Below, in pieces: positions 9,680 through 47,423 of a DNA stretch of 48,398 nucleotides. The stretch is from assembly GCA_040753495.1 (NCBI GenBank), contig JBFMEF010000037.1, positions 1-48,398 of the forward strand. The letters run 5' to 3'. Below the pieces are notes generated by a model. The model did not search any database, was not told the DNA's origin, and saw nothing but the letters and a program-made list of their open reading frames with translations. Made by a program: the position numbers and the translations under genes. The number at the start of each line of letters is the position of its first letter. Position 1 is the stretch's first letter. This stretch comes from Candidatus Zixiibacteriota bacterium. GTDB taxonomy: Bacteria; Zixibacteria; MSB-5A5; GN15; PGXB01.

Positions 9680-11629
9680 ATGCGGAATTTCATAATTCTC
9701 CGCCTCATTAACTATTTGATAACAGGCATTCTCCTTTCTGCCGCCGCCGTCGCCGCTGATGGAGACATTACTCATATAGTCTCGCATGACCGCATGAAAG
9801 TAGTCACCGACCCCTCGCGCGGTTACAACCCGTATCGTTCCTGGGCGCTTTTCCCCTCGACGGCAATCGAATACCGCAAAGTCTTTCTGCATATCCGCTA
9901 CCAGTGCCCCGATTCTCTTCACTGCGGCGAATGGGACTATATCGATAATATCTTTATCCGCCGCCGCGGCTCACAGGATGCCGACACCGGCAAGATAGAA
10001 ATCGCCCGGATGATATCTCCTTATGGATGGCGTTTTGGACCGGACTGGCAATTTGACTGGCAAACCGATATTACCGATTTCGGAATTCTGCTGCATGATT
10101 CGGTCGAAATTGAATTCAATCATACCGGGTATGAGAAAAATGATGACCGGGGGTGGGTAGTTACCCTCGACTTTGAAATAACGGAAGGTCCTCCGGCGAT
10201 GAAATGTCTCGGTTTCGATACCCTCTGGTGCGGCTCGTTCCCTTATGGCGACTCCGCCCGCCCTATCGAAAACTTTCTTTCACCGGTTTCATTAGTGAAT
10301 AAATATGACGCCGCCCTCGCCCGTGTGCGGATTCTGCAGACCGGTCACGGAATGGATGCGCAGGAAAACTGCGCCGAATTCTGCCGCAAATACCGGCGGC
10401 TCTACATCGGAGATTCTCTCATTAATGAAAGATTTATCTGGCGCGAATGCGGCGAGAATCCGCTCTATCCTCAGGCTGGCACCTGGATTTTTGACCGCGC
10501 CGGTTGGTGCCCCGGGGCGCTGGCGTATCCCGATATTTATGACTATCCGATTCTGGGGGATACTTTGATTAGAGTCAATATCGATATGGAGCCGTACCTG
10601 AATCCCAAAAATCCAACCGCCAATTTCTATATCTACTCCTACCTGTTCTATTACGCGCCGCCGTCGGCGCGGTACGACATTACGCTGGAAGAGCTGATTG
10701 CTCCGAACGACCGGGATGAATACTCCCGCCGGAATCCGGTCTGCGCTAATCCGCGGATAATAGTCAGGAACAACGGAAGCGAGAAGATTACATCATTTGC
10801 CGTGACATATGGATTTATTGGGGAAGAGACTTCCGTATATAACTGGAGCGGGAATTTGACACCCCAGAAATCAGTGGAGATAACGCTCCCCGGCACTATC
10901 GTACCGCGTGGGGAAAAACGTGACTATCTCATAAGACTTGATATGCCCAACGGTCAGACGGATGAATACCTGCCGGATAATTCGGCAATTACCGCTGCTA
11001 CGGCGGTTCCATTGCTGGGAACTGATTTTATACTAAATTTTCGCGCCAATCAGGATTCCAGTCATAATTTTTATCGATTAAGCGATGAGCCGGGAGAAGT
11101 TATCGCAGAGAGAAAACTGGGGACATTGAACTCGGCGAGAATATACTATGATACCCTGCATTTGGCGCCGGGATGTTATAATTTTCTTTTCGGCGACACT
11201 GCCGGCGATGGGCTCGATTTCTGGTTCAATCCCGAAGGGGGCTATGGCTTTGTCAGGCTCCTTGATATGCAGGGGAGGCTTCTGAAATCGTTCTTATCTG
11301 ATTTTGGAAGCGAGATAAACTTCTCCTTCCTGGTACAAGAGAACCCTCCTCCGATGCCCCCGGAGGATACCCTTCCTCTGGTTACCCCTTTCCCGGCGCG
11401 CAATTCCGGTAAGTTCAACCTCGATATCTTCTTCAATGAGAAATCTGATTTCCGCTTGGAAATCTGGAGTGAAGACAGCAGTAAGATAGTTTTTCGCCGC
11501 GATTACAAAGCTGTCAAAGAAGCCTTCCTTCCGCTCGATATATCTTCCGAGCCGGAGGGGATTTACTTTGTGAAAGTACTCACCGAGTCAAATACCACCG
11601 TACGACGGGTCAGGCTTAAGCGAACTTAA
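9680..11629 (+). CDS. Secreted PNGase F-like protein with C-terminal sorting-type domain
   Basis: A 649-residue protein with a signal peptide (residues 1-26, ending AVAA). Residues 40-330 resemble the two-lobed peptide-N-glycosidase F fold. CGEWDYIDNIFI (83-94, candidate catalytic Asp86) corresponds to the EWDR-type motif of PNGase F, and TGHGMDAQENCAEFC (221-235, candidate Glu233) to its GHG...CAEWC block. PNGase F cleaves N-glycans from asparagine. Residues 350-430 look like an Ig-like beta domain. The last 85 or so residues, ending in a GIYFVKV pattern and a basic tail, look like a type IX secretion sorting domain. The gene starts 9 bases after the desulfurase and probably shares its transcript. 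Actual deglycosylase activity is inference; many bacterial homologues are untested. Confidence 0.75.
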   Translation: MRNFIILRLINYLITGILLSAAAVAADGDITHIVSHDRMKVVTDPSRGYNPYRSWALFPSTAIEYRKVFLHIRYQCPDSLHCGEWDYIDNIFIRRRGSQDADTGKIEIARMISPYGWRFGPDWQFDWQTDITDFGILLHDSVEIEFNHTGYEKNDDRGWVVTLDFEITEGPPAMKCLGFDTLWCGSFPYGDSARPIENFLSPVSLVNKYDAALARVRILQTGHGMDAQENCAEFCRKYRRLYIGDSLINERFIWRECGENPLYPQAGTWIFDRAGWCPGALAYPDIYDYPILGDTLIRVNIDMEPYLNPKNPTANFYIYSYLFYYAPPSARYDITLEELIAPNDRDEYSRRNPVCANPRIIVRNNGSEKITSFAVTYGFIGEETSVYNWSGNLTPQKSVEITLPGTIVPRGEKRDYLIRLDMPNGQTDEYLPDNSAITAATAVPLLGTDFILNFRANQDSSHNFYRLSDEPGEVIAERKLGTLNSARIYYDTLHLAPGCYNFLFGDTAGDGLDFWFNPEGGYGFVRLLDMQGRLLKSFLSDFGSEINFSFLVQENPPPMPPEDTLPLVTPFPARNSGKFNLDIFFNEKSDFRLEIWSEDSSKIVFRRDYKAVKEAFLPLDISSEPEGIYFVKVLTESNTTVRRVRLKRT

Positions 11630-33447: not shown

Positions 33448-33996
33448 TTAAAAATTCAATTGCAGATTGGCGGCTATGCCGCCGTCGGGATGGGGCGCCA
33501 GGTCAAATGAAATTCTTTTCTCGTATTGCGGAAATTTTGCCAGATGGGCATCAACGTAGGCATCGAACATGGAAAGAAAGATGGTGGTGCCGAGATACCA
33601 GGAAAAGCGATTGCGCTCGTTTTTGGCTTCCAGGAATTTGTTGAAATAGTATTCTTTGACCGTTGTGTTGGCAGCGGCATCAAATTTCTCCCGGGCATCC
33701 GAGGTTTTCTGAGAGTAATGAATCAGGGTAACGACCAGAGAGCCTTCCAGCGCCATAAAGATTCCGGCTTTGATATATTTCTTGTTTCCCAGCTGCCCCC
33801 AGCCGGGGACAAACATCGATTTGAAAAGCGCCACGGTTGGATTTTGAGTCCGGCTGCTGTCCACCGGGATATTGACATAGTACCCGCCGCTCTGGCGGTC
33901 GCGGTCGGCCGGTGGTTGCGGCTTATCCTGAGATTTGAGATATCCGGGAGTCAGGAAAGCGATTAGAAGAAGCGATATCGGAAACAGAGGCCGCAC
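33448..33996 (-). CDS. DUF5683-like membrane protein
   Basis: A 182-residue protein with a signal peptide (residues 1-22). The family hallmark is ALFKSMFVPGWGQLGNKKYIKAGIFMALEG, followed by a second hydrophobic segment (WYLGTTIFLSMFDAYVDAHL) and FDLAP near the end. DUF5683 proteins are common in Bacteroidota and relatives, with unknown function. It is the last gene of the minus-strand run, 6 bases after the lipid kinase gene. Confidence 0.8.
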   Translation of the reverse strand: MRPLFPISLLLIAFLTPGYLKSQDKPQPPADRDRQSGGYYVNIPVDSSRTQNPTVALFKSMFVPGWGQLGNKKYIKAGIFMALEGSLVVTLIHYSQKTSDAREKFDAAANTTVKEYYFNKFLEAKNERNRFSWYLGTTIFLSMFDAYVDAHLAKFPQYEKRISFDLAPHPDGGIAANLQLNF

Positions 33997-34002
33997 AGCA
34001 TT

Positions 34003-34956
34003 TCACTCGTCAACTGCCGACTCTTTTGCCGGCCGCGCCTCCAGGTCAAAGAGCCTGATTTTCTTCTCGAAAACTTCAATGGAGAGCGACTCTGACTTAA
34101 TCGGGAATATATCCCCGTCCAGATAGAGATTTTTCCCCCGCAGCGGTGTCAGCAGAATTTTGTGGCCGCGATAGATTCTGATTTCATCGGAGTAGATATA
34201 TTTTTTCTTAAAAATCATTCTGATATAACCGGAGAGAATCGCTTTGCCGTCGCCGACATCAAAGATGACTTCCGCTTTCCCGTCATCATCAAGAGAGGCG
34301 CCGGTCATGGGCAAGCCGAGAGTGTAAGGCAGGAGGTTGATATTAAGGAGTCGGGGAGCAATGTCGAACTGGAAAGCATCCATCTTGATGGAGATAGGTG
34401 TTTGCTGCACCCGCGCGGCCGCCTGGGAAGCGTAGCGGGACCAGGAGATACCAAACCGGGGTATCCGCCTTTTCCCGATTATTTCATTGAGTTCCGGAAT
34501 CAAGCCAATAGCAAGCGAGCCGAGGACAAGATTGCCATCAACCAGGGCATGGTCGATACGGCGGGCTCGGCCGGAGAGAAAATGTTTAATCGCCCGGCCG
34601 GTGTCCGGCTCACCGTAAAGCGACCTGTATATATTGTTGAATTTCCCCAGCGGAAAGATTCCGAGAATGGGGGAACGCCGGGCCAGATGTTGCGCCACCA
34701 GGTTAACGGTGCCGTCGCCGCCGCAGGCGATAATGCCTTCAGGATGACGGTTCACCGCCTGACGGATTAATGTCGATGCCCCGGCCGGGGAATCGGCGTC
34801 AATCAGATGAAACTCCCGGCTCTCCCTCTTAAGTTCGGCGATGAGGCTGTCAATCTCTTTGGGGAGATAATCGGAAGCGGCTTTATTTACCACCAGATAA
34901 AGGGTGCTCCGGTTCGGGGGTCGAAAACGCTGATATTGGTGCCGTCGGTAATTCAT
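34003..34956 (-). CDS. Diacylglycerol kinase-type (YegS/BmrU-like) lipid kinase
   Basis: A 317-residue protein of the DAGK catalytic fold. The nucleotide loop is IIACGGDGTVNLVAQHL (about residues 75-91). The second family motif reads LGIFPLGKFNNIYRSL, where most relatives have a GTxND pattern, so the usual Thr and Asp are replaced. It closes with a beta-sandwich carrying ILLTPLRGKNLYLDGD. These enzymes phosphorylate diacylglycerol, sphingosine-like or undecaprenol-type lipids. The changed motif leaves specificity and even activity open. The gene lies between the DUF3108-like and DUF5683 genes, with short gaps. Confidence 0.82.
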   Translation of the reverse strand: MNYRRHQYQRFRPPNRSTLYLVVNKAASDYLPKEIDSLIAELKRESREFHLIDADSPAGASTLIRQAVNRHPEGIIACGGDGTVNLVAQHLARRSPILGIFPLGKFNNIYRSLYGEPDTGRAIKHFLSGRARRIDHALVDGNLVLGSLAIGLIPELNEIIGKRRIPRFGISWSRYASQAAARVQQTPISIKMDAFQFDIAPRLLNINLLPYTLGLPMTGASLDDDGKAEVIFDVGDGKAILSGYIRMIFKKKYIYSDEIRIYRGHKILLTPLRGKNLYLDGDIFPIKSESLSIEVFEKKIRLFDLEARPAKESAVDE

Positions 34957-35002: not shown

Positions 35003-35758
35003 CTATTCGAATTTCTGCAGTTCCATTCTGACCACTTTCATGGTGTCGGCGGCGCGATAGATTTCCAAAAGAACCGGCAGATGTCTTTCATCTTTGCTGA
35101 AGTAAGTATAGGCGATGGCGCTGGGGTCGCTGCTTACCAGTTTATAGCAGGCGAAGGTTCCGGCGGCGACGGTTATCTCCTGCTCGGCGGCGACAGAGTC
35201 GATATCTTCGACGGCATTGAAAGGCATCCCGTTGAAAGTCAGCAGGTCAACTTCTCTATATTTTTTGACGGCGCCGAGTTTGAAATCGAAATCGCGGGCG
35301 GCAAGGATGGAGCCGACGCCGGTGGTAAGATTGTCGCTCATCGGGATTTTCCCGGGAGGAGCGTAGCGGGGAACATTGGAGCTAATTTCCACGGAATCGC
35401 CCCGGGCAATGGCGCTGAGACGAACCGTGTCGGTCCCAAGTTGCGCTTTGGCTTGCTCCGGGAATTTCAGCAGGTTTTCCGAGGAGGCGAAACGAAGGCT
35501 ATTGCCGTTGTATTTCTCCTGGGAATTGATAGTAATCTGCTGCATCGGGATATCGAAAATCTGGTTGACACTGAAAACCGGGTTGTCACCCCCGGACTTG
35601 GTGATTTCGACAGTAGTTGAGGCTTTCATTTCCGCCGGCACATAGGTGGTGACTTCGTAATAAAGTTTCTCCGATTTGCCGTCGGGCCAGGCAGTCAGAA
35701 AATCACCGGCGACGGCGGTAAAGGCAAGCAGTAATAGACAGGCAAGCCTGATAAGCAT
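35003..35758 (-). CDS. Secreted DUF3108-like protein
   Basis: A 251-residue exported protein with a signal peptide (MLIRLACLLLLAFTAVAG). The mature protein is beta-rich: KLYYEVTTYVPAEMKAS at the start, a TVAAGTFACYKLVS block, and a closing YFSKDERHLPVLLEIY segment. The last two are usual in DUF3108 and related periplasmic barrels. No enzyme motif is visible. The ribosome site AAGGAGG is ideal. A hairpin lies 46 bases upstream of the start, so it may be partly separated from the upstream operon. Confidence 0.7.
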   Translation of the reverse strand: MLIRLACLLLLAFTAVAGDFLTAWPDGKSEKLYYEVTTYVPAEMKASTTVEITKSGGDNPVFSVNQIFDIPMQQITINSQEKYNGNSLRFASSENLLKFPEQAKAQLGTDTVRLSAIARGDSVEISSNVPRYAPPGKIPMSDNLTTGVGSILAARDFDFKLGAVKKYREVDLLTFNGMPFNAVEDIDSVAAEQEITVAAGTFACYKLVSSDPSAIAYTYFSKDERHLPVLLEIYRAADTMKVVRMELQKFE

Positions 35759-35803: not shown

Positions 35804-35825
35804 AACCGCTAATAAGCAAGCGGTT
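35804..35825 (-). terminator. Hairpin between the DUF6599 and DUF3108-like genes
   Basis: Perfect 7-bp arms AACCGCT / AGCGGTT with an 8-base loop, overlapping the stop codon of the DUF6599 gene. On the minus strand it is followed by ATTTC, a weak T run, so it may attenuate rather than stop transcription. Confidence 0.4.
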
Positions 35826-36727
35826 TATTGAAAGGAGCCGACCCAGGAGGCCAGAAATTCGGCATGCGCCGGGCTGTAACCGACCATCCCGATAAGCTTT
35901 CCCTGCCTCAAACCGACGGCGGCGCGACCATAGAAGTCATCATATATGACAAAAGAGAGTCCGCTGTCGTACGGTATTGAATCGGGCGCCGGTTCGAAAC
36001 TCCCGATTGCTTTGGCATATTCCGACCAGCGAAGAAATTTCTCGCCCGATTCATCGGTGGTCAGGAATAGTGTGGCGGTATCCGGCTCCAGATAGAAGTC
36101 AAGAGCGTAAACTTTCGGCAGGAATTTGTGACCGAGGAAATCGGCGGCGTAATATTTGTCGGTCAATCCGATTCGATTGGGCACCGGAAAAAGCAGGAAG
36201 GGGTTGGGGCGACTGGTGGCGCCGGGAAGAGTATCGTTTATTGCCCGGGCAACCTGCGCCAGGGCATCGGTCGTCATTTCCGATTCATTATATCCCATCA
36301 GGTCCACCAGATAGACGCCCTTGACGAAAGTCAATTTCATCGGAGTTGAATACCCTTCTATTCCCAGAGTAACAAGGGTCGGATTCTCCGGCCTGCGGAC
36401 AGAGTAGATACCATAGGCATCGGTGGGGGTGCTGAAGCGGTAGATATCGGCGACCAGATGAAAGGTATCCCGGGTATATTCCATTGATGCCAGTTCAATG
36501 AAATTATAACTCTGATATAGCTCGGCTCCGCCGGGGATATACTCCCAGAGAGCATTTCCTTTATATATCCGGGGCTGGCCGGTAGTGACCAATCCGGTTG
36601 CGGGAATGGAATCGGGAAGGAAATTGGCGGCCCGGATTGCCGGGTCATCAGATTTGTCACCGGAGCAATTGAACGCCACCGGAATTAGAGTCATTAAGAA
36701 GAGTATCAGCATTAATCCTTTTTTCAT
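35825..36727 (-). CDS. DUF6599-like lipoprotein
   Basis: A 300-residue protein. The start at 36727 is chosen because GAGGAAAG precedes it and the protein then opens with a lipoprotein signal (MKKGLMLILFLMTLIPVAFNC, lipid cysteine at about residue 21). The body has IYKGNALWEYIPGGAELY, a VADIYRFSTPTDAYGIYSVRR segment and GVYLVDLMGY, all of which I associate with DUF6599. Its function is unknown. It overlaps the polyferredoxin gene by 4 bases. The context (polyferredoxin, DUF362) suggests an accessory role in an envelope electron-transfer unit. Confidence 0.8.
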   Translation of the reverse strand: MKKGLMLILFLMTLIPVAFNCSGDKSDDPAIRAANFLPDSIPATGLVTTGQPRIYKGNALWEYIPGGAELYQSYNFIELASMEYTRDTFHLVADIYRFSTPTDAYGIYSVRRPENPTLVTLGIEGYSTPMKLTFVKGVYLVDLMGYNESEMTTDALAQVARAINDTLPGATSRPNPFLLFPVPNRIGLTDKYYAADFLGHKFLPKVYALDFYLEPDTATLFLTTDESGEKFLRWSEYAKAIGSFEPAPDSIPYDSGLSFVIYDDFYGRAAVGLRQGKLIGMVGYSPAHAEFLASWVGSFQ

Positions 36728-38418
36728 ATCTTTCCTCGCAAATTGTACTGCGGAATATCGTTTTTCTTTTTGAGCAACATCTGGTTTTCCGACGAACGGG
36801 ATTCGCCGACCGAAGTAATATAAATTGCCGCTTTGTCTTCGACCGGGCAGGCATACTCGCAGGCGCCGCAGCCGGTGCAATGCTCCGGGTCAACATACGG
36901 TTGCTTTACGGTCACGGTTTCGCCGCGACTATTATACACCGTTTCCTCGCGAAGGTAAATGGACTTCGGTGAGGTTGGGCACCATTCCTCGCAAACGATG
37001 CAAGGGCGCGCCATCGCCCAGGGGAGGCATCTTCCCCGGTCGATAAAGGCGGTGCCGATCCGGTTGGGAGGAGTTTCCTTATCCCCTACTTTATCCTTGA
37101 GAGTCAATTCCAGAATGGCGCCGGTAGGGCAGACCTGTCCGCAGAGGGTGCAGGAGGGCTCGCAGTAACCGATGCGGGCAATAAGCAGAGGCGACCAGAT
37201 TCCTTCCAATCCCGACTCCATGAAAGTGGGATGAAGAGCATTATTGGGGCAGACCCGCATACATTGACCGCAGCGGATACAGCGGGCAAGAAAGTCATTT
37301 TCAGAAACTGAGCCGGGAGGACGAATCAGATAGGGGCTGGCATTGGCGGCAAAAGTATCACCGGAGCGAAAGAGAGGATAGAGGGCGGCTCCGCCCGCGA
37401 GAGAAGCGACCACTTTCCGGCGGGAGATATCTATTTTGGCGGTGCCGGCGGGATTGGACTTGGAGACCTCCTGCGAGGGGAAAAATCTGAATGACAACGC
37501 CTGGGTAGGGCAGACTCCCTGGCAGTTAAGGCAAAGATGGCACTCCGACTGCCGCCAGACTGAGCCGATATCAGGATTGTCCGCTCCCTGACAATGAAGC
37601 AGACACTCGTTGCAATGATTGCAGGCTGACTCTTTCTTCTCCAGACCGAATATGGCGAAGCGCGAGAAAACTCCCAGCATGGCTCCAAGGGGGCATATCC
37701 CGCGGCACCAGAAGCGACTGAAAATCCGATTGAGAACGATGATAGCGATAAAGAGGCTGCCGATGGTCAGTATGGTGTGGAAGTGCATTTTACGGAAAGT
37801 AAGAAGCAGGGGGGCAATGAGGTCGTAGAGGAATTGAGCGGCCGCTGAAAGCGGCGGAATACCGATTGATTTGACCCAGCCGGTGATGCCATCGGCGGAG
37901 GTATGTATAACCGGAAGTACCACGGTGCCGATAGAGCGCGCCAGTAGCGGCAGCGGGTCAAGCAACCCGACCTGCAGAGTCCCCATCAAAGCGGCGGCAA
38001 GGAAAATGAAAAGTATGTAATATTTTATTCGCTGGTATTTCTTGTAGCGGTTGGAATCAATTTTCTGCTTTCCTTTCCTTTTCATCCTTTCAGAGGGGAT
38101 TTCCGAAATCCAGTGGTTAAGAGTTCCCAGCGGGCAGACCCAGCCGCAGAAGAAGCGACCGATGAAAATGGTGGGAATCAGGATGACCAGCGACCAGAGG
38201 AGGCCTTTATAAATAGTGCCATTTGCCAGCAGAGTTCCCAGCGCCGTCAGAGGGTCGAACTCAAGAGCAATAGAGACCGGGTACGGCAGCCGGATTTCAT
38301 TGGGGTCGGCAGGATTGAAATTGACAGAGAAATTGGTCTTGAGAATCAACCAGAAGAAGATGACAAAGAAGATTACCTGCGATGCCCGGCGGAGATTTCT
38401 GACGGTCGCAATGGTCAT
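36724..38418 (-). CDS. NapH-NapG-like membrane polyferredoxin fusion
   Basis: A 564-residue protein with two halves. Residues 1-310 are NapH-like: several transmembrane segments, the paired FFCGWVCPLGTLNHW (about 89-103) and FWCRGICPLGAMLG (237-249), then two 4Fe-4S motifs (Cys266/269/272/276 and Cys293/296/299/303). Residues 330-564 are NapG-like. They begin with an internal twin-arginine segment (SRRKVVASLAGGAALY, 332-347) that also works as a transmembrane helix. Further cluster motifs start at Cys380, Cys423, Cys473 and Cys514. It would carry electrons from quinol or a cytosolic donor to the outer side of the membrane. It overlaps DUF362 by 1 base and DUF6599 by 4. No nap, nos or other terminal reductase is nearby. 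Confidence 0.88.
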   Translation of the reverse strand: MTIATVRNLRRASQVIFFVIFFWLILKTNFSVNFNPADPNEIRLPYPVSIALEFDPLTALGTLLANGTIYKGLLWSLVILIPTIFIGRFFCGWVCPLGTLNHWISEIPSERMKRKGKQKIDSNRYKKYQRIKYYILFIFLAAALMGTLQVGLLDPLPLLARSIGTVVLPVIHTSADGITGWVKSIGIPPLSAAAQFLYDLIAPLLLTFRKMHFHTILTIGSLFIAIIVLNRIFSRFWCRGICPLGAMLGVFSRFAIFGLEKKESACNHCNECLLHCQGADNPDIGSVWRQSECHLCLNCQGVCPTQALSFRFFPSQEVSKSNPAGTAKIDISRRKVVASLAGGAALYPLFRSGDTFAANASPYLIRPPGSVSENDFLARCIRCGQCMRVCPNNALHPTFMESGLEGIWSPLLIARIGYCEPSCTLCGQVCPTGAILELTLKDKVGDKETPPNRIGTAFIDRGRCLPWAMARPCIVCEEWCPTSPKSIYLREETVYNSRGETVTVKQPYVDPEHCTGCGACEYACPVEDKAAIYITSVGESRSSENQMLLKKKNDIPQYNLRGKI

Positions 38419-39371
38419 CAGAGAATTTCTTTATAACCAATAGAACGGTAGTCGATTTTGCCAAGTCCGCTTGTCTCGGCAAGAATAATATGCCCCACTT
38501 TCTCTCCGGTAAGCGACATAAATTCAGCGCCGCGGGAATCGGCGGCGACCGGGTCAATGGAGCAAATTACAGAATCGGCAATAAGAACGTCATCGAGCGA
38601 CCCGCCGGTGGGACCGTTGCGCAAGAGGACGCGAGTGGCATCGACCACAGTCAAGGTCGGCTTGAAAAAGGCGGTTAAATCGACTATCGACTGGTCGATA
38701 CTCTGGTGCAATTGATGTCGTCGTCCGCCCAGAACGCCATAGAGGTTTTTCATCCCGATAGTGCAGGCTGAGAGGGAGTGATGTTTCACTATCGGCATAT
38801 TTATCAGGCGGTCGGTTTCGATGAAATATTTGAGCACGGGCCAATTGGTCAAGAGCTTCCCCCGCAGGTCAATATTGAGCATATCATTGTCGTCAGGCAA
38901 GAAAACCTCGGCGCCCGCTTTCTCGGCGCTCTCCCTGATGCCGGAACGGAGGAAACAGCGCCGCGGGTCATGGCAGGTGATATCGGTAACGATAACCCGG
39001 GAGGCTCCCGCCTCTTTGCAGAGGCGGACCATTTCGCCGACCAGAAGTGGATTGGTGTCGGCCGCCTGTTCCGGAGTTCGGTCCCAACCGATATTCGGTT
39101 TTATGGTTACCCTCTCCCCCGGTTTGATAAACCGCTTGATGCCCCCGATGGCATCAAGCGCTTTATTCAAAGCGGCAATATGATTGCTGTCTTTCGCCAG
39201 AGTTAATCCGGGATAAGTTGAGTCGGCGGAGATGCCGAACTCGGCGGTTTCGGAAAGATGAGGTTGATAATTGAAAGGGTCGCGGTTGTGGAAAAAGGCG
39301 CCGACGGCACCGGTTGCCGCCGCAAAGGTGAGCGCCTGCCCGGACTTCTTCAAGAATTCGCGACGTTTCAT
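38418..39371 (-). CDS. Tat-exported DUF362 protein
   Basis: A 317-residue protein with a twin-arginine signal (MKRREFLKKSGQALTFAAAT). The DUF362 domain follows: RVTIKPNIGWDRTPEQAADT, ASRVIVTDITCHDPRRCF, INMPIVKHHSLSACTIGMKNLYG and VDATRVLLRNGPTGG. DUF362 proteins often carry ferredoxin domains, but this one does not, and the adjacent polyferredoxin may supply the clusters. The function is unknown. The Tat signal implies folding or cofactor loading before export. The stop overlaps the polyferredoxin start by one base. Confidence 0.9.
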   Translation of the reverse strand: MKRREFLKKSGQALTFAAATGAVGAFFHNRDPFNYQPHLSETAEFGISADSTYPGLTLAKDSNHIAALNKALDAIGGIKRFIKPGERVTIKPNIGWDRTPEQAADTNPLLVGEMVRLCKEAGASRVIVTDITCHDPRRCFLRSGIRESAEKAGAEVFLPDDNDMLNIDLRGKLLTNWPVLKYFIETDRLINMPIVKHHSLSACTIGMKNLYGVLGGRRHQLHQSIDQSIVDLTAFFKPTLTVVDATRVLLRNGPTGGSLDDVLIADSVICSIDPVAADSRGAEFMSLTGEKVGHIILAETSGLGKIDYRSIGYKEIL

Positions 39372-39378
39372 ACTGACC

Positions 39379-40251
39379 TTATAAAATATACAGGATGATT
39401 ACAACGGAGGCAAGCCAAAGAAGAACGTCAATTAATAGCGGCAGGTCGGTCAGAAGCATGGTTGTGGGAGAGCCGCCCTGTGCTTCTTTATGCACCAGGT
39501 AGAGGTAGCGGAAAATACCATAAATTACAAAGGGAATAGTGACAAAGAGGTATGGGGTATGCAGCTTGTCCTGGACTTCATGGGACATAGTATAGAAAAG
39601 ATAAGTGACAACGGTGGAAGCGGTAACGACACCGATAAGCTGGTCGAGGAGGTAGGGGGAATATTTCTCAAGAATTTGGCGGTGCGAAGCAGCGCTGTCC
39701 TGCAGAAAGGTCAACTCATGGCGGCGTTTGCCGAGTCCGAGGAAAAGAGCCAAAACAAAAGTCGTAATCAGGAGCCATTCGGAGAAGACAACCTGAATGG
39801 CAACTACCCCGCCATAGGCGCGCAGGACAAAGCCGGCGGCGATGGTCATGACGTCAATTATGACTATATTCTTCAAGATAACGGTATAGAAAATATTGAG
39901 CGTCAGGAAAGCCAGCGCGACCGTCAAGAATGCTTGACTGATAACAAGGGCGAGCGCGACTCCACCACCGGCAAGAATAACGGCAACGATGACGGCTGTT
40001 GCCGACGAGACTTTGCCGGAGGCAATGGGACGGTTCTTCTTGAGGGGATGCATCTGGTCTCGTTTCCGGTCAACCAGGTCATTAAAAACATAGACGGCGG
40101 AGGAGAGCAGACAGAAAGCGACAAAGGCCAGCAGGGCATTCTGCAAGAGCGGCGGTGTTTCCGCCTTGCCGGCGAAGATGAGACCGGCGAGTACGACACC
40201 GTTTTTGACCCAGTGCGACGGGCGAATCAGCTTAATTATATCGGAAATCAT
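39379..40251 (-). CDS. UbiA-family prenyltransferase, decaprenyl-phosphate phosphoribosyltransferase-like
   Basis: A 290-residue polytopic protein. Near the N-terminus it has IRPSHWVKNGVVLAGLIFAG, then the metal/pyrophosphate motif VFNDLVDRKRDQMHPLKKNRPIASG (NDxxDxxxD). A second conserved block, FVLALFLGLGKRRHEL, follows. These match the DPPR synthase branch of UbiA, which joins phosphoribose to a polyprenyl phosphate. In actinobacteria this leads to arabinose donors; elsewhere its product use is unclear. An alternative GTG start lies at 40272. It follows the exosortase gene on the same strand and precedes DUF362 by 7 bases. Confidence 0.85.
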   Translation of the reverse strand: MISDIIKLIRPSHWVKNGVVLAGLIFAGKAETPPLLQNALLAFVAFCLLSSAVYVFNDLVDRKRDQMHPLKKNRPIASGKVSSATAVIVAVILAGGGVALALVISQAFLTVALAFLTLNIFYTVILKNIVIIDVMTIAAGFVLRAYGGVVAIQVVFSEWLLITTFVLALFLGLGKRRHELTFLQDSAASHRQILEKYSPYLLDQLIGVVTASTVVTYLFYTMSHEVQDKLHTPYLFVTIPFVIYGIFRYLYLVHKEAQGGSPTTMLLTDLPLLIDVLLWLASVVIILYIL

Positions 40252-40298
40252 GTAACGCCCATTCCTTGCCACTTACAGGCTGCGTCCGGCAGCCGTTT

Positions 40299-41180
40299 CT
40301 ATCCGGCCGCGTTGAGCGGAGGCGGATTGCCGGCGGCAGTTTTCCCTTCAAATATTCGCTTGAGAATTACCCCAAAAAGAAATAGGAGCAAAAAAGCGAC
40401 GATAAAAACAGATGCCCCCATGATGGAGTGAAGCGGCTCGGCGGTGACATTGGCATCGGAAACATAAACGATTATGCCGGTGACAAAGACGCGGAAGACA
40501 TTGCCGCAGACCGCGATCGGAATAGTAGAAGCAAAGAGAATGATTTTGGCGAGAAGAGATTTCTGCGTCATATAGGCATATATCGCTCCCAGAGCCAGGA
40601 GCGACATCATGGAGCGCATCCCGGAGCAGGCTTCGGCAACCTCCAGCGATTGATTGGGCAGATGAATCATATTCCCCTGACGAATGGCCGGCATCCCGAT
40701 TAGATTCAGAATGGTGCCGGTGACCTTGCTTGCCAGAAGCTGCATTGGGAAGGTTGCGGAATAATAAAGAACATATGGAATCGGAATCATAAAAACCAGA
40801 AAGAGAATCTCAAACCAGGTTCGGCGGATGATATTATTGCCGAAGAAATAGAGCGCCATTCCGAAAATGGTCACAACCAGAGAGAAACGGACGGTGAAAT
40901 ATTCGGAGGCGCCATTCCCCGCGACAAAAAGAAACACGCCGACAAGAATGAAAAAGATTCCGAGCCTGTTGGAGGTTACCTCCAGCGCCGCCAGTTCCTG
41001 ACGCTTTCTCCAGAGCAGATATCCGGAGATGACCGGAATCAGAAACCCATGGGAATAGTTGCCGTCGGTTCCCCAGTCTTTGACCAGGTCAATAATGACG
41101 GGAAGATAAATAATAAGCAGGACTGCGGCCGCAACCAGCGGAAGAATCTTATTTATGTTTCCCGGAGGTTTTGTTTCCAT
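40299..41180 (-). CDS. Exosortase/archaeosortase family transpeptidase
   Basis: A 293-residue protein with about eight transmembrane segments. The catalytic residues are Cys185 in VAEACSGMRS, Arg230 in CGNVFRVFVTG and His251 in EPLHSIMG, the complete exosortase triad. The N-terminal part has YSHGFLIPVIS. Exosortases recognise a C-terminal PEP-CTERM-type signal, cleave it and attach the protein to a carrier or the cell surface. No protein in the window carries an obvious PEP-CTERM tail, and no exopolysaccharide cluster is beside it. It is the first gene of a tight minus-strand run. Confidence 0.92.
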   Translation of the reverse strand: METKPPGNINKILPLVAAAVLLIIYLPVIIDLVKDWGTDGNYSHGFLIPVISGYLLWRKRQELAALEVTSNRLGIFFILVGVFLFVAGNGASEYFTVRFSLVVTIFGMALYFFGNNIIRRTWFEILFLVFMIPIPYVLYYSATFPMQLLASKVTGTILNLIGMPAIRQGNMIHLPNQSLEVAEACSGMRSMMSLLALGAIYAYMTQKSLLAKIILFASTIPIAVCGNVFRVFVTGIIVYVSDANVTAEPLHSIMGASVFIVAFLLLFLFGVILKRIFEGKTAAGNPPPLNAAG

Positions 41181-44813: not shown

Positions 44814-47423
44814 TTAGAAGTTGAAACCGATATTGAGATAGTAGCGGTCGGTGCGGTCTTTGGCTTTTCCGTAGGTGAAATCGACCGGTCCGATGGGGGA
44901 ATCAAAAGCGAGCGAAGCGCCATAGCCGTAGCGGAGATTGTCCAGCTTGATATCGTCAATGGAGCGATAGATTTCTCCCAGGTCGTACTTGGCGGTAATA
45001 TAAAACCGATAAGGGAGGCGATAGCGAAGCTCCAGATTAGCCAGAATCATTTTATCGCCGGCCAGTTCATCGGTCTTGAACCCGATGAATGAGTAAGCGC
45101 CGCCGAGGTAGAATTTCTCCGACAAGGGTATTTTATAGTCGGTTTGCATCCAGCCGACAGCGAACCGGGGGTGAAAGTTGAGATGGCGCGAAAGCGGGAA
45201 GTATGATTCGAGGGAACTGAATACTTTAGTGTATTCGGTTTCGCCGCCGAGGATATCGGCGGCGTACTCAATGAAAAACTGATGTTTTTTCCCGGCGGTC
45301 GGGAAGGAGCGTCGGTTGAAGGTCTCCACCAGAGAGCGGATGGTAATCGCGCGCAGACGGATTTCTTCTTCTGACCCACCGGGGCGGAATCTGTTTTTAA
45401 CCTGTTCCCACTTTATTTCGCCGGTGACCGTCCCCAGGCGGGCGATTTGCTGTCCCAGCAGAAATTCGAATCCGTATCTTTTTTCGAGGACGCGGCGGCT
45501 CGATTTTCCCCGTTCATCATAAAGTTTGCGCTCCAGCAGACCATAATATCCTCGGGCGCGGTAGGTCAGATAGGTGGAGAAGAAGCGGTCGGCTTTGAGC
45601 GACAATTCGTACCGCTGTCGGCGCGGTGCATAACGGGCATGCAGGAGTATCTCCTGCCCGGTTCCAAAGAGGTTATCGTCGAGAACTTCGGCGAATTCCT
45701 CGCTGCGATATTCATCATCCCAGCGCCATCCGAACCGCGCCTGGGTGTACTTCTTCTCCGCCACATTGAGAGTAACGACAGCGCCGGAATCGCCTGGAGT
45801 TAGAAACATCGATACCCGCTCAAAAAGCCCGGTGGCATAGATATTGGTAATTCCGGCGGAAGCCCGGGTGGAGCGAAACGGCTCCCCTTCCCGCAGCGGA
45901 AAATTGGCGGAGACCAGCCATTTCTTGGTCCGCTCCCGGCCCGTGACCTCGATCTTTTCTATTAAACCTTCATCGACATCGATGATGATGGTCTTATGCT
46001 CCGGGTCCAATCGGACCGAGCGCAGATGCGCCAGGTCATGGCCTCGTTTGCGGTAGAGCGATTCCAATGTGCGAGCAAAATTCTCAATATCTTCCGAAGA
46101 GACCGTTTTTCTGCCCTCGGTCAAAAGCGCCGCAATGACGGAAGAGTCAAAGACGGTATTGCCGCGGCAGATGATTTGGAGACTGTCAACGGCCGGCCGC
46201 GGGACGGTCTGCATTCGGAGGTTCACAATGTTATATGAGCCGAATTTGAAGCCGGTTTCGCTGACGACCGCATTAACAGAAAAAAGGAGTTGCGACCGGT
46301 ACAGGTCAGAGAGGGCGGCGGCGATATCGGTTCGTCGTACAATTGCCCCGTCTTTGAGAGGAAAGACGGCGCTGAAGAGCGAGTCCGGCATACCTGTTTG
46401 TACTATCGATTCCAGGCAGACCGTGTCGCGGTCGCAGGTCAGCTGTAACCGCTTAATTATTTCCGGGGCGGCGCGCCAGCCTGCCTGATAGCCGCTGTCA
46501 ATCAGTTCCGCCGCAGACTGAAAGTCGCTCGAATATATGCCGGCGATGGCGGGAGTAATGACCCAATCGGCCTGTTTGAGTCCCGATTCTTTTTCATCCA
46601 GCGACATGATTGTGGTAACCTGGTCGGCAATATCAATCGGGTCTCTGATTTTGTTTTTGGGAAGAAGGTCGCTGGTGGTATTGACTGCGACTACGAACTT
46701 GCTTCCGAGAGCGCGCACGACATCCACCGGTATCGGATTGACCAATCCGCCGTCCATAAGAATCATATCCTCTTTTTCCACGCCGGTAAAAGCCAGAGGA
46801 AACGCCATAGTGGCGCGGATGGCGTCGGCCAGGTTGCCTTTGCCAATAACGGTCTCTTTTCCCGAGACAATGTCGGTGGTGACCGCCCGAAAGGGGACTC
46901 TCATTCGCGAGAAATCGGTGCCGGAGATATAATTGGACTGGAGTGTCAGACTGGAAATAAGGTCGGTCAATCTTTGACCGGCGGTGAGCGCCTGAGGAAT
47001 ATGCGGCACAAAACCGTCAAAACGGATGGATAGCAGATATCGCTCTTTTTCGGAGCGCTGTGTGGTCAATAGCGATGTCCGCGAGGGACGGTCTCGAAAG
47101 AGACTGGGAAAGTTGATATTCAGGAAAATCTTTTTCAGGCTGTCGGCATCATAGCCGGAGGCGTAGAGTCCGCCGATAATTCCTCCAATCGACGTTCCCG
47201 CAATAGCGGAAATCTTAAGCCCTGATTCTTCGAGCGCCTTAATCACCCCGATCTGGGCAATACCGCGGGCGCCGCCCCCTGAAAGCGCCAGCCCTATTTG
47301 CCGTCCCGAATCGGGGGATTGAAATCGGTAGCCATCCCAGCCGATATAAATAATAGTAGAGTCGGCGGCATATAAGGGTTGTACCGCAAGCATCAAACCA
47401 ATGATTATGCCCAGAGTTTTCAC
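44814..47423 (-). CDS. Patatin-like phospholipase fused to POTRA and outer-membrane barrel (type Vd-like)
   Basis: An 869-residue protein. A signal peptide (residues 1-19) precedes a patatin domain (about 43-320) with the oxyanion loop SGGGARG (48-54), nucleophile Ser78 in GTSIGG and the dyad Asp224 in DGGLVNPIP. After a linker with POTRA-like segments (LRSVRLDPEHKTIIIDVDEGLIEKIEVTG) comes a 16-strand-type D15/Omp85 barrel with the FYLGGAYSFIGFKTDE motif. The protein ends in a terminal Phe. This is the layout of PlpD-type autotransporters. The phospholipase could face or leave the cell surface, or stay in the periplasm. It converges on the M16 pair with an 18-base gap. Confidence 0.9.
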   Translation of the reverse strand: MKTLGIIIGLMLAVQPLYAADSTIIYIGWDGYRFQSPDSGRQIGLALSGGGARGIAQIGVIKALEESGLKISAIAGTSIGGIIGGLYASGYDADSLKKIFLNINFPSLFRDRPSRTSLLTTQRSEKERYLLSIRFDGFVPHIPQALTAGQRLTDLISSLTLQSNYISGTDFSRMRVPFRAVTTDIVSGKETVIGKGNLADAIRATMAFPLAFTGVEKEDMILMDGGLVNPIPVDVVRALGSKFVVAVNTTSDLLPKNKIRDPIDIADQVTTIMSLDEKESGLKQADWVITPAIAGIYSSDFQSAAELIDSGYQAGWRAAPEIIKRLQLTCDRDTVCLESIVQTGMPDSLFSAVFPLKDGAIVRRTDIAAALSDLYRSQLLFSVNAVVSETGFKFGSYNIVNLRMQTVPRPAVDSLQIICRGNTVFDSSVIAALLTEGRKTVSSEDIENFARTLESLYRKRGHDLAHLRSVRLDPEHKTIIIDVDEGLIEKIEVTGRERTKKWLVSANFPLREGEPFRSTRASAGITNIYATGLFERVSMFLTPGDSGAVVTLNVAEKKYTQARFGWRWDDEYRSEEFAEVLDDNLFGTGQEILLHARYAPRRQRYELSLKADRFFSTYLTYRARGYYGLLERKLYDERGKSSRRVLEKRYGFEFLLGQQIARLGTVTGEIKWEQVKNRFRPGGSEEEIRLRAITIRSLVETFNRRSFPTAGKKHQFFIEYAADILGGETEYTKVFSSLESYFPLSRHLNFHPRFAVGWMQTDYKIPLSEKFYLGGAYSFIGFKTDELAGDKMILANLELRYRLPYRFYITAKYDLGEIYRSIDDIKLDNLRYGYGASLAFDSPIGPVDFTYGKAKDRTDRYYLNIGFNF

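Follow-up and report, generated by a model that had tools for sequence, protein, structure and literature searches.

The five-gene row and its surroundings

The window, by which we mean the whole stretch of DNA analyzed here, is contig JBFMEF010000037.1 (C37) at its full length of 48,398 nt, from a Candidatus Zixiibacteriota MAG (assembly GCA_040753495.1; GTDB lineage Zixibacteria; MSB-5A5; GN15; PGXB01) with a genome of 3.08 Mb that is 98% complete. An ORF check identified five minus-strand genes arranged head to tail from position 41180 to 35825. The row starts with an exosortase of 293 residues that has no fused EpsI domain (40299..41180) and continues with a UbiA-family polyprenyl-phosphate phosphoribosyltransferase (39379..40251), a Tat-exported DUF362 protein (38418..39371), a protein that joins a NapH-like membrane part to a NapG-like multi-[4Fe-4S] part (the FeS fusion; 36724..38418), and a putative lipoprotein of a redox-linked DUF6599 subfamily (35825..36727). 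The UbiA and DUF362 genes are separated by 7 bases, the DUF362 and FeS genes overlap by 1 base, and the FeS and DUF6599 genes overlap by 4 (ATGA), while the exosortase-UbiA gap is either 26 or 47 bases, depending upon whether UbiA starts at a GTG (40272) or at an ATG (40251). The ATG seems the likelier start, since most alignments with homologues start with residue 8 of the GTG-initiated protein or a neighboring residue, and an AAGGA is found upstream of the ATG. Both the spacing and the five gene assignments given in a preliminary description of this DNA agree with the ORFs and with the Pfam and NCBIfam profiles. That description also had the row ending in a hairpin. A minus-strand stem-loop is indeed present (35804..35825; 7-bp stem, 8-base loop), but it is weak, as judged from its z of -2.45 and from its having been missed by the terminator scan. 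Promoter and terminator scans overall returned slightly more sites than were found in shuffles, which does not fix the ends of the transcript.

Three further minus-strand genes follow, encoding a DUF3108-like protein (35003..35758), a DAGK_cat lipid kinase (34003..34956), and a DUF5683 protein (33448..33996) that closes a block conserved in the family. Relatives carry these genes downstream on the same strand as well, and thus the transcript may extend past the five genes. The lipid kinase accompanies UbiA in most relatives and is divergent from it outside the family. Elsewhere in the window (44814-47423), an 869-residue patatin phospholipase is fused to POTRA and Omp85 domains.

The comparison covered 133 Zixibacteria genomes and recorded whether and where each gene occurs; here, f1 and g1 denote the window's own family and genus, G000 the window genome, and G078 the second genome of that genus. 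Several genera of the family repeat the five-gene order of the preliminary description, in their case with an EpsI gene inserted between the exosortase and UbiA, and this recurrence indicates that the gene order is not due to chance.

The exosortase, EpsI, and UbiA genes

The exosortase matches PF09721 with an E-value of 2.7e-74 (250 bits vs. a cut-off of 25.7) and exceeds the cut-off of the EpsH subfamily model TIGR02602 (205.6 vs. 105.6), while it falls short of that for Exosortase A (XrtA, TIGR03109; 203.2 vs. 208). Cys185, Arg230, and His251, previously described as a complete triad, are invariant in all 27 readable relatives from the family and order. Many relatives had been flagged for one in-frame TGA, raising the idea of a selenocysteine exosortase, which we discarded because those read were ordinary C-terminal stop codons. 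PEP-CTERM substrates were counted by PF07589 matches only, and four in the genome exceed the Pfam cut-off, with tails such as VVPEPATLALFGLGLSGLGLMRRRK. All four are located outside of the window, in agreement with the earlier observation that the window contains none. The exosortase system accordingly does have substrates, and the enzyme would be expected to cut their PEP-CTERM tails. On contig C101 of the window genome (40763-41603), neighboring PEP-CTERM genes form a tandem pair.

EpsI (DUF3485) is the usual partner of an exosortase, either adjacent or fused, even though it is not required. Among the relatives, an EpsI gene of ~211 codons with a HSPKHCLPGGGW motif sits between the exosortase and UbiA in nearly all that have both, and it is absent from this interval in both genomes of the window's genus (G000 and G078). 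The window genome encodes one intact EpsI on contig C65 (11619-12221), in a polysaccharide cluster beside glycosyltransferases. The window's genus has lost EpsI from between the exosortase and UbiA. A different outcome is seen in G083 (L076:9063-9860 and 9860-10495; contig C9), where the UbiA-linked exosortase has no catalytic Arg and EpsI has no His/Cys motif, while both decayed frames are still open and the downstream genes are retained. In this genome, the exosortase and EpsI decay together and separately from the rest of the row. G083 also carries a second exosortase from another clade on its contig C11.

The general features of the window system resemble those of the PEP-CTERM/exosortase system (EpsH with EpsI; Haft 2006, PMC1569441), as both have an 8-TM exosortase, a Cys/Arg/His triad, PEP-CTERM substrates, and an EpsI partner in the genome with polysaccharide genes near it. 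The two differ in that EpsI is removed from the exosortase operon of the window's genus and that the window exosortase adjoins a lipid-pentose UbiA enzyme rather than glycosyltransferases.

The UbiA protein matches PF01040 and passes the cut-off of the decaprenyl-phosphate phosphoribosyltransferase model NF008977 (308.6 bits vs. 234). It also aligns over its full length to PDB 8j8j, the M. tuberculosis enzyme Rv3806c (E = 4.9e-33), and its motif NDxxDxxxDxxHPxKxxRPIAxG is intact, with the NDxxDxxxDxxH portion aligned to Rv3806c. The cut-off and the full-length alignment both bear out its initial assignment to the decaprenyl-phosphate phosphoribose type, and its product is presumably polyprenyl-phosphate ribose-5-phosphate. 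It thus shares full-length homology and an intact first Asp-rich motif with the DPPR synthase Rv3806c and with the bacterial PPPRS of pentofuranose three-component systems (PMC11127046), but has no phosphatase domain. In other bacteria, the DPPR-type product feeds pentofuranose transfer onto surface glycans (PMC11127046).

The exosortase and UbiA genes are neighbors in 43 of the 86 Zixibacteria genomes that have both, spread over seven families. When UbiA linkage was mapped as a label onto a tree of 71 exosortases, it proved to be clustered, requiring 7 changes compared with a mean of 24.1 for shuffled labels. The window's exosortase clade has 34 members, 30 of which are UbiA-linked, while three are cut by contig ends and a single one is unlinked. 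None of the eight members of a second Zixibacteria clade (L066-L072 and L096) is UbiA-linked, nor was UbiA found beside any of the 16 exosortases, some located on short contigs, that were inspected in 12 other-phylum genomes. These distributions mark the exosortase-EpsI-UbiA linkage as old, inherited, and proper to a single Zixibacteria exosortase clade, and a pairing of this kind supports a functional tie between the exosortase and UbiA. Among the papers searched, none ties an exosortase to Zixibacteria or describes it as forming a system together with a UbiA enzyme.

One form that such a tie might take is that the UbiA product, whether polyprenyl-phosphate pentose or a lipid derived from it, serves as the acceptor for this exosortase clade, which would join the cleaved C terminus of PEP-CTERM proteins to it. 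The exosortase-EpsI-UbiA linkage is tight and co-directional as well as being inherited within one clade, and there is a precedent in Methanosarcina, in which the position of artA beside pssA led to a demonstrated role for PssA/PssD in ArtA-dependent maturation; the archaeosortase ArtA is thought to use archaetidylethanolamine made by PssA and PssD (PMC7157517). Here, too, a sorting-enzyme gene adjoins a membrane-lipid enzyme gene, although the lipid enzyme of the window is of another class, the link is one of gene position, and UbiA also occurs without a sorting enzyme. Indeed, UbiA is present in 36 Zixibacteria genomes without an exosortase, which leaves room for a main role unrelated to the exosortase, and its retention in these genomes disfavors the acceptor role. 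Also arguing against this role are the lack of UbiA beside the 16 other-phylum exosortases and beside those of the second Zixibacteria clade, the lack of an amine nucleophile on a ribosyl lipid, and the fact that DPPR-type enzymes are known for glycan pentosylation (PMC11127046). Overall, we consider an acceptor role to be improbable. The most likely role for a UbiA-made polyprenyl-phosphate pentose would instead be to supply surface glycans, which is the plain reading given the role of DPPR-type enzymes in glycans (PMC11127046) and the usual location of exosortases among exopolysaccharide genes (PMC1569441).

The redox module and its distribution

The remaining three genes of the row have a distribution of their own. 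DUF362 and FeS genes are neighbors in 75 of the 80 Zixibacteria genomes that have both, DUF362 adjoins the FeS gene in 66 of 80 GTDB loci, and DUF6599 is usually found near the pair. Within the window's family, UbiA and DUF362 are neighbors in 12/12 genomes and the exosortase and DUF362 in 10/12, whereas the corresponding counts elsewhere in the phylum are 0/63 and 0/49, and there the redox genes occupy their own locus, which in several genomes faces the convergent genes listed below. Beyond the phylum, the module is widespread, with records from Acidobacteriota, Nitrospirota, Deltaproteobacteria, Myxococcales, and Bacteroidota, and no exosortase match was obtained in 38 of the 50 module-bearing genomes from other phyla.

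These counts bear directly upon whether all five genes could constitute one pathway, in which the Fe-S chain would give electrons for modifying or anchoring exosortase substrates. Such a pathway would fit the conserved order in the window's family and the overlaps of 1 and 4 bases. The preliminary description held that its reading would fail if homologous exosortase and DUF362 genes were seldom adjacent in related genomes. Adjacency is 10/12 within the family, but we reject the five genes as a single system based upon the 0/49 adjacency outside of it. The 38 module-bearing genomes without an exosortase, the retention of the module behind a decayed exosortase in G083, and the presence of the FeS gene without an exosortase match in G079 and G086 all speak against it as well, which makes one pathway highly improbable. 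The same distribution upholds the earlier warning of a possibly separate Fe-S part: given its own loci elsewhere and the 38/50 genomes without an exosortase, the redox part appears to be a separate cassette that came to be placed behind UbiA in one family.

Several other genes were observed near the module. In seven loci (L098, L099, L100, L102, L081, L082, and L083), it is convergent with genes for a membrane protein of ~711 residues, for a radical SAM protein with Tat export, and for another DUF362 protein that is not of the Tat type. A Memo/AMMECR1 protein, reminiscent of AmmeMemoRadiSam, is also encoded nearby in L102 as well as in some loci of Acidobacteriota (L115, L121, and L142). A ~405-residue aldo/keto reductase-like protein adjoins the module in 11 loci, including L103, L104, L106, L107, L159, and L162; the single copy read is Tat-like and has C-terminal ferredoxin cysteines.

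The FeS fusion contains Fer4 family domains (Pfam) with conserved cysteines, and it resembles NapG/NapH and MauM/MauN in having a NapH-like 4-TM CX3CP half and a NapG-like ferredoxin half. Unlike these proteins, its halves are fused, its partner is DUF362 rather than a nitrate reductase, and its scores are far under the NCBIfam cut-offs (111.8 vs. 269 for NapG and 88.4 vs. 213 for NapH/MauN). At the NapH/NapG junction, near residue 332, there is a twin-arginine motif, SRRKVVASLAGG, with one invariant Arg that might belong to an internal Tat signal. The DUF6599 protein matches PF20244 (E = 1.6e-34) and groups, with moderate support, with redox-linked rather than UbiA-linked copies. Its structural model is confident (pLDDT 90.4), and a fold search with it found no PDB match at E ≤ 0.001, the best being RseB (1.4e-3, TM ~0.2). 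None of the papers searched mentions DUF6599.

For the DUF362 protein (PF04015), the twin arginine near its start is invariant in 45 homologues, as are residues that include His198, Lys208 (ten residues on), and His222, a spacing that resembles H174, K184, and H200 of LarA (the LarA in L181). The AlphaFold model of the protein (pLDDT 92.4) was compared with the PDB using Foldseek, and its 18 best matches were all LarA-family racemases (E = 1.6e-8 to 6.5e-5; prob 1.00; TM ~0.5). DUF362 and LarA also belong to the same Pfam clan (PMC11770544). All 45 members match the DUF362 profile and none matches PF09861, and hhalign found nothing when the DUF362 profile was compared with a two-sequence LarA alignment. 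The structural model predicts a LarA fold for the DUF362 protein. It is like LarA (DUF2088) in this predicted fold and in how its H-x9-K is spaced near the Lys that tethers the cofactor, and unlike it in being Tat-exported, in having no PF09861 match, and in often occurring without the cofactor genes.

A further step would be to regard the DUF362 protein as a LarA-superfamily enzyme that works in the periplasm, transfers hydride by means of a nickel-pincer (NPN) cofactor, and gives electrons to quinone, or takes them from it, via the FeS fusion. Besides the structural matches, the invariant H-x9-K with its later His, and the common Pfam clan, this suggestion came from lar genes adjoining the module: in nine Acidobacteriota loci (L109, L110, L112, L119, L120, L124, L128, L131, and L138), larE, larC, or larB-like genes lie directly upstream of FeS-DUF6599-DUF362. 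The Zixibacteria genomes do not bear this out. Among 52 module-bearing genomes with a completeness of 90% or more, LarC/LarE are present in 34 and both absent in 18, without a significant association (p = 0.36). The claim for a LarA fold is supported, while the claim for the cofactor is not. Together with the empty LarA profile comparison and a TM-score of only ~0.5, this leaves NPN dependence doubtful.

A probable composite operon

The row is probably best explained, as far as comparisons of sequence and gene order can tell, as a composite operon in which an exosortase/UbiA part and an independent redox cassette have been joined in one bacterial family. The exosortase/UbiA part would cut PEP-CTERM tails and supply surface glycans, as outlined above. 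The cassette would comprise a Tat-exported, LarA-fold DUF362 protein, a quinone-linked NapHG-like ferredoxin fusion, and a DUF6599 lipoprotein, and its likely work is the exchange of electrons between quinone and the exported enzyme via the FeS fusion. That the composite is kept across several genera could mean that its parts share a function invisible in the sequence, and some of the adjacency could simply reflect synteny passed down by descent.

The row is a real operon but not one system, and its split serves as a warning that a tight operon need not be one pathway. The split also reveals a widespread module that combines a Tat-exported, predicted LarA-fold DUF362 protein with a quinone-ferredoxin chain. 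The old exosortase-EpsI-UbiA linkage is the more interesting part. The archaeosortase case was opened by the neighbor-gene clue of artA by pssA, and the Zixibacteria linkage is a similar clue that comes with a named enzyme. If the UbiA product were truly the acceptor, this would put a name to what anchors the substrates of an exosortase system.
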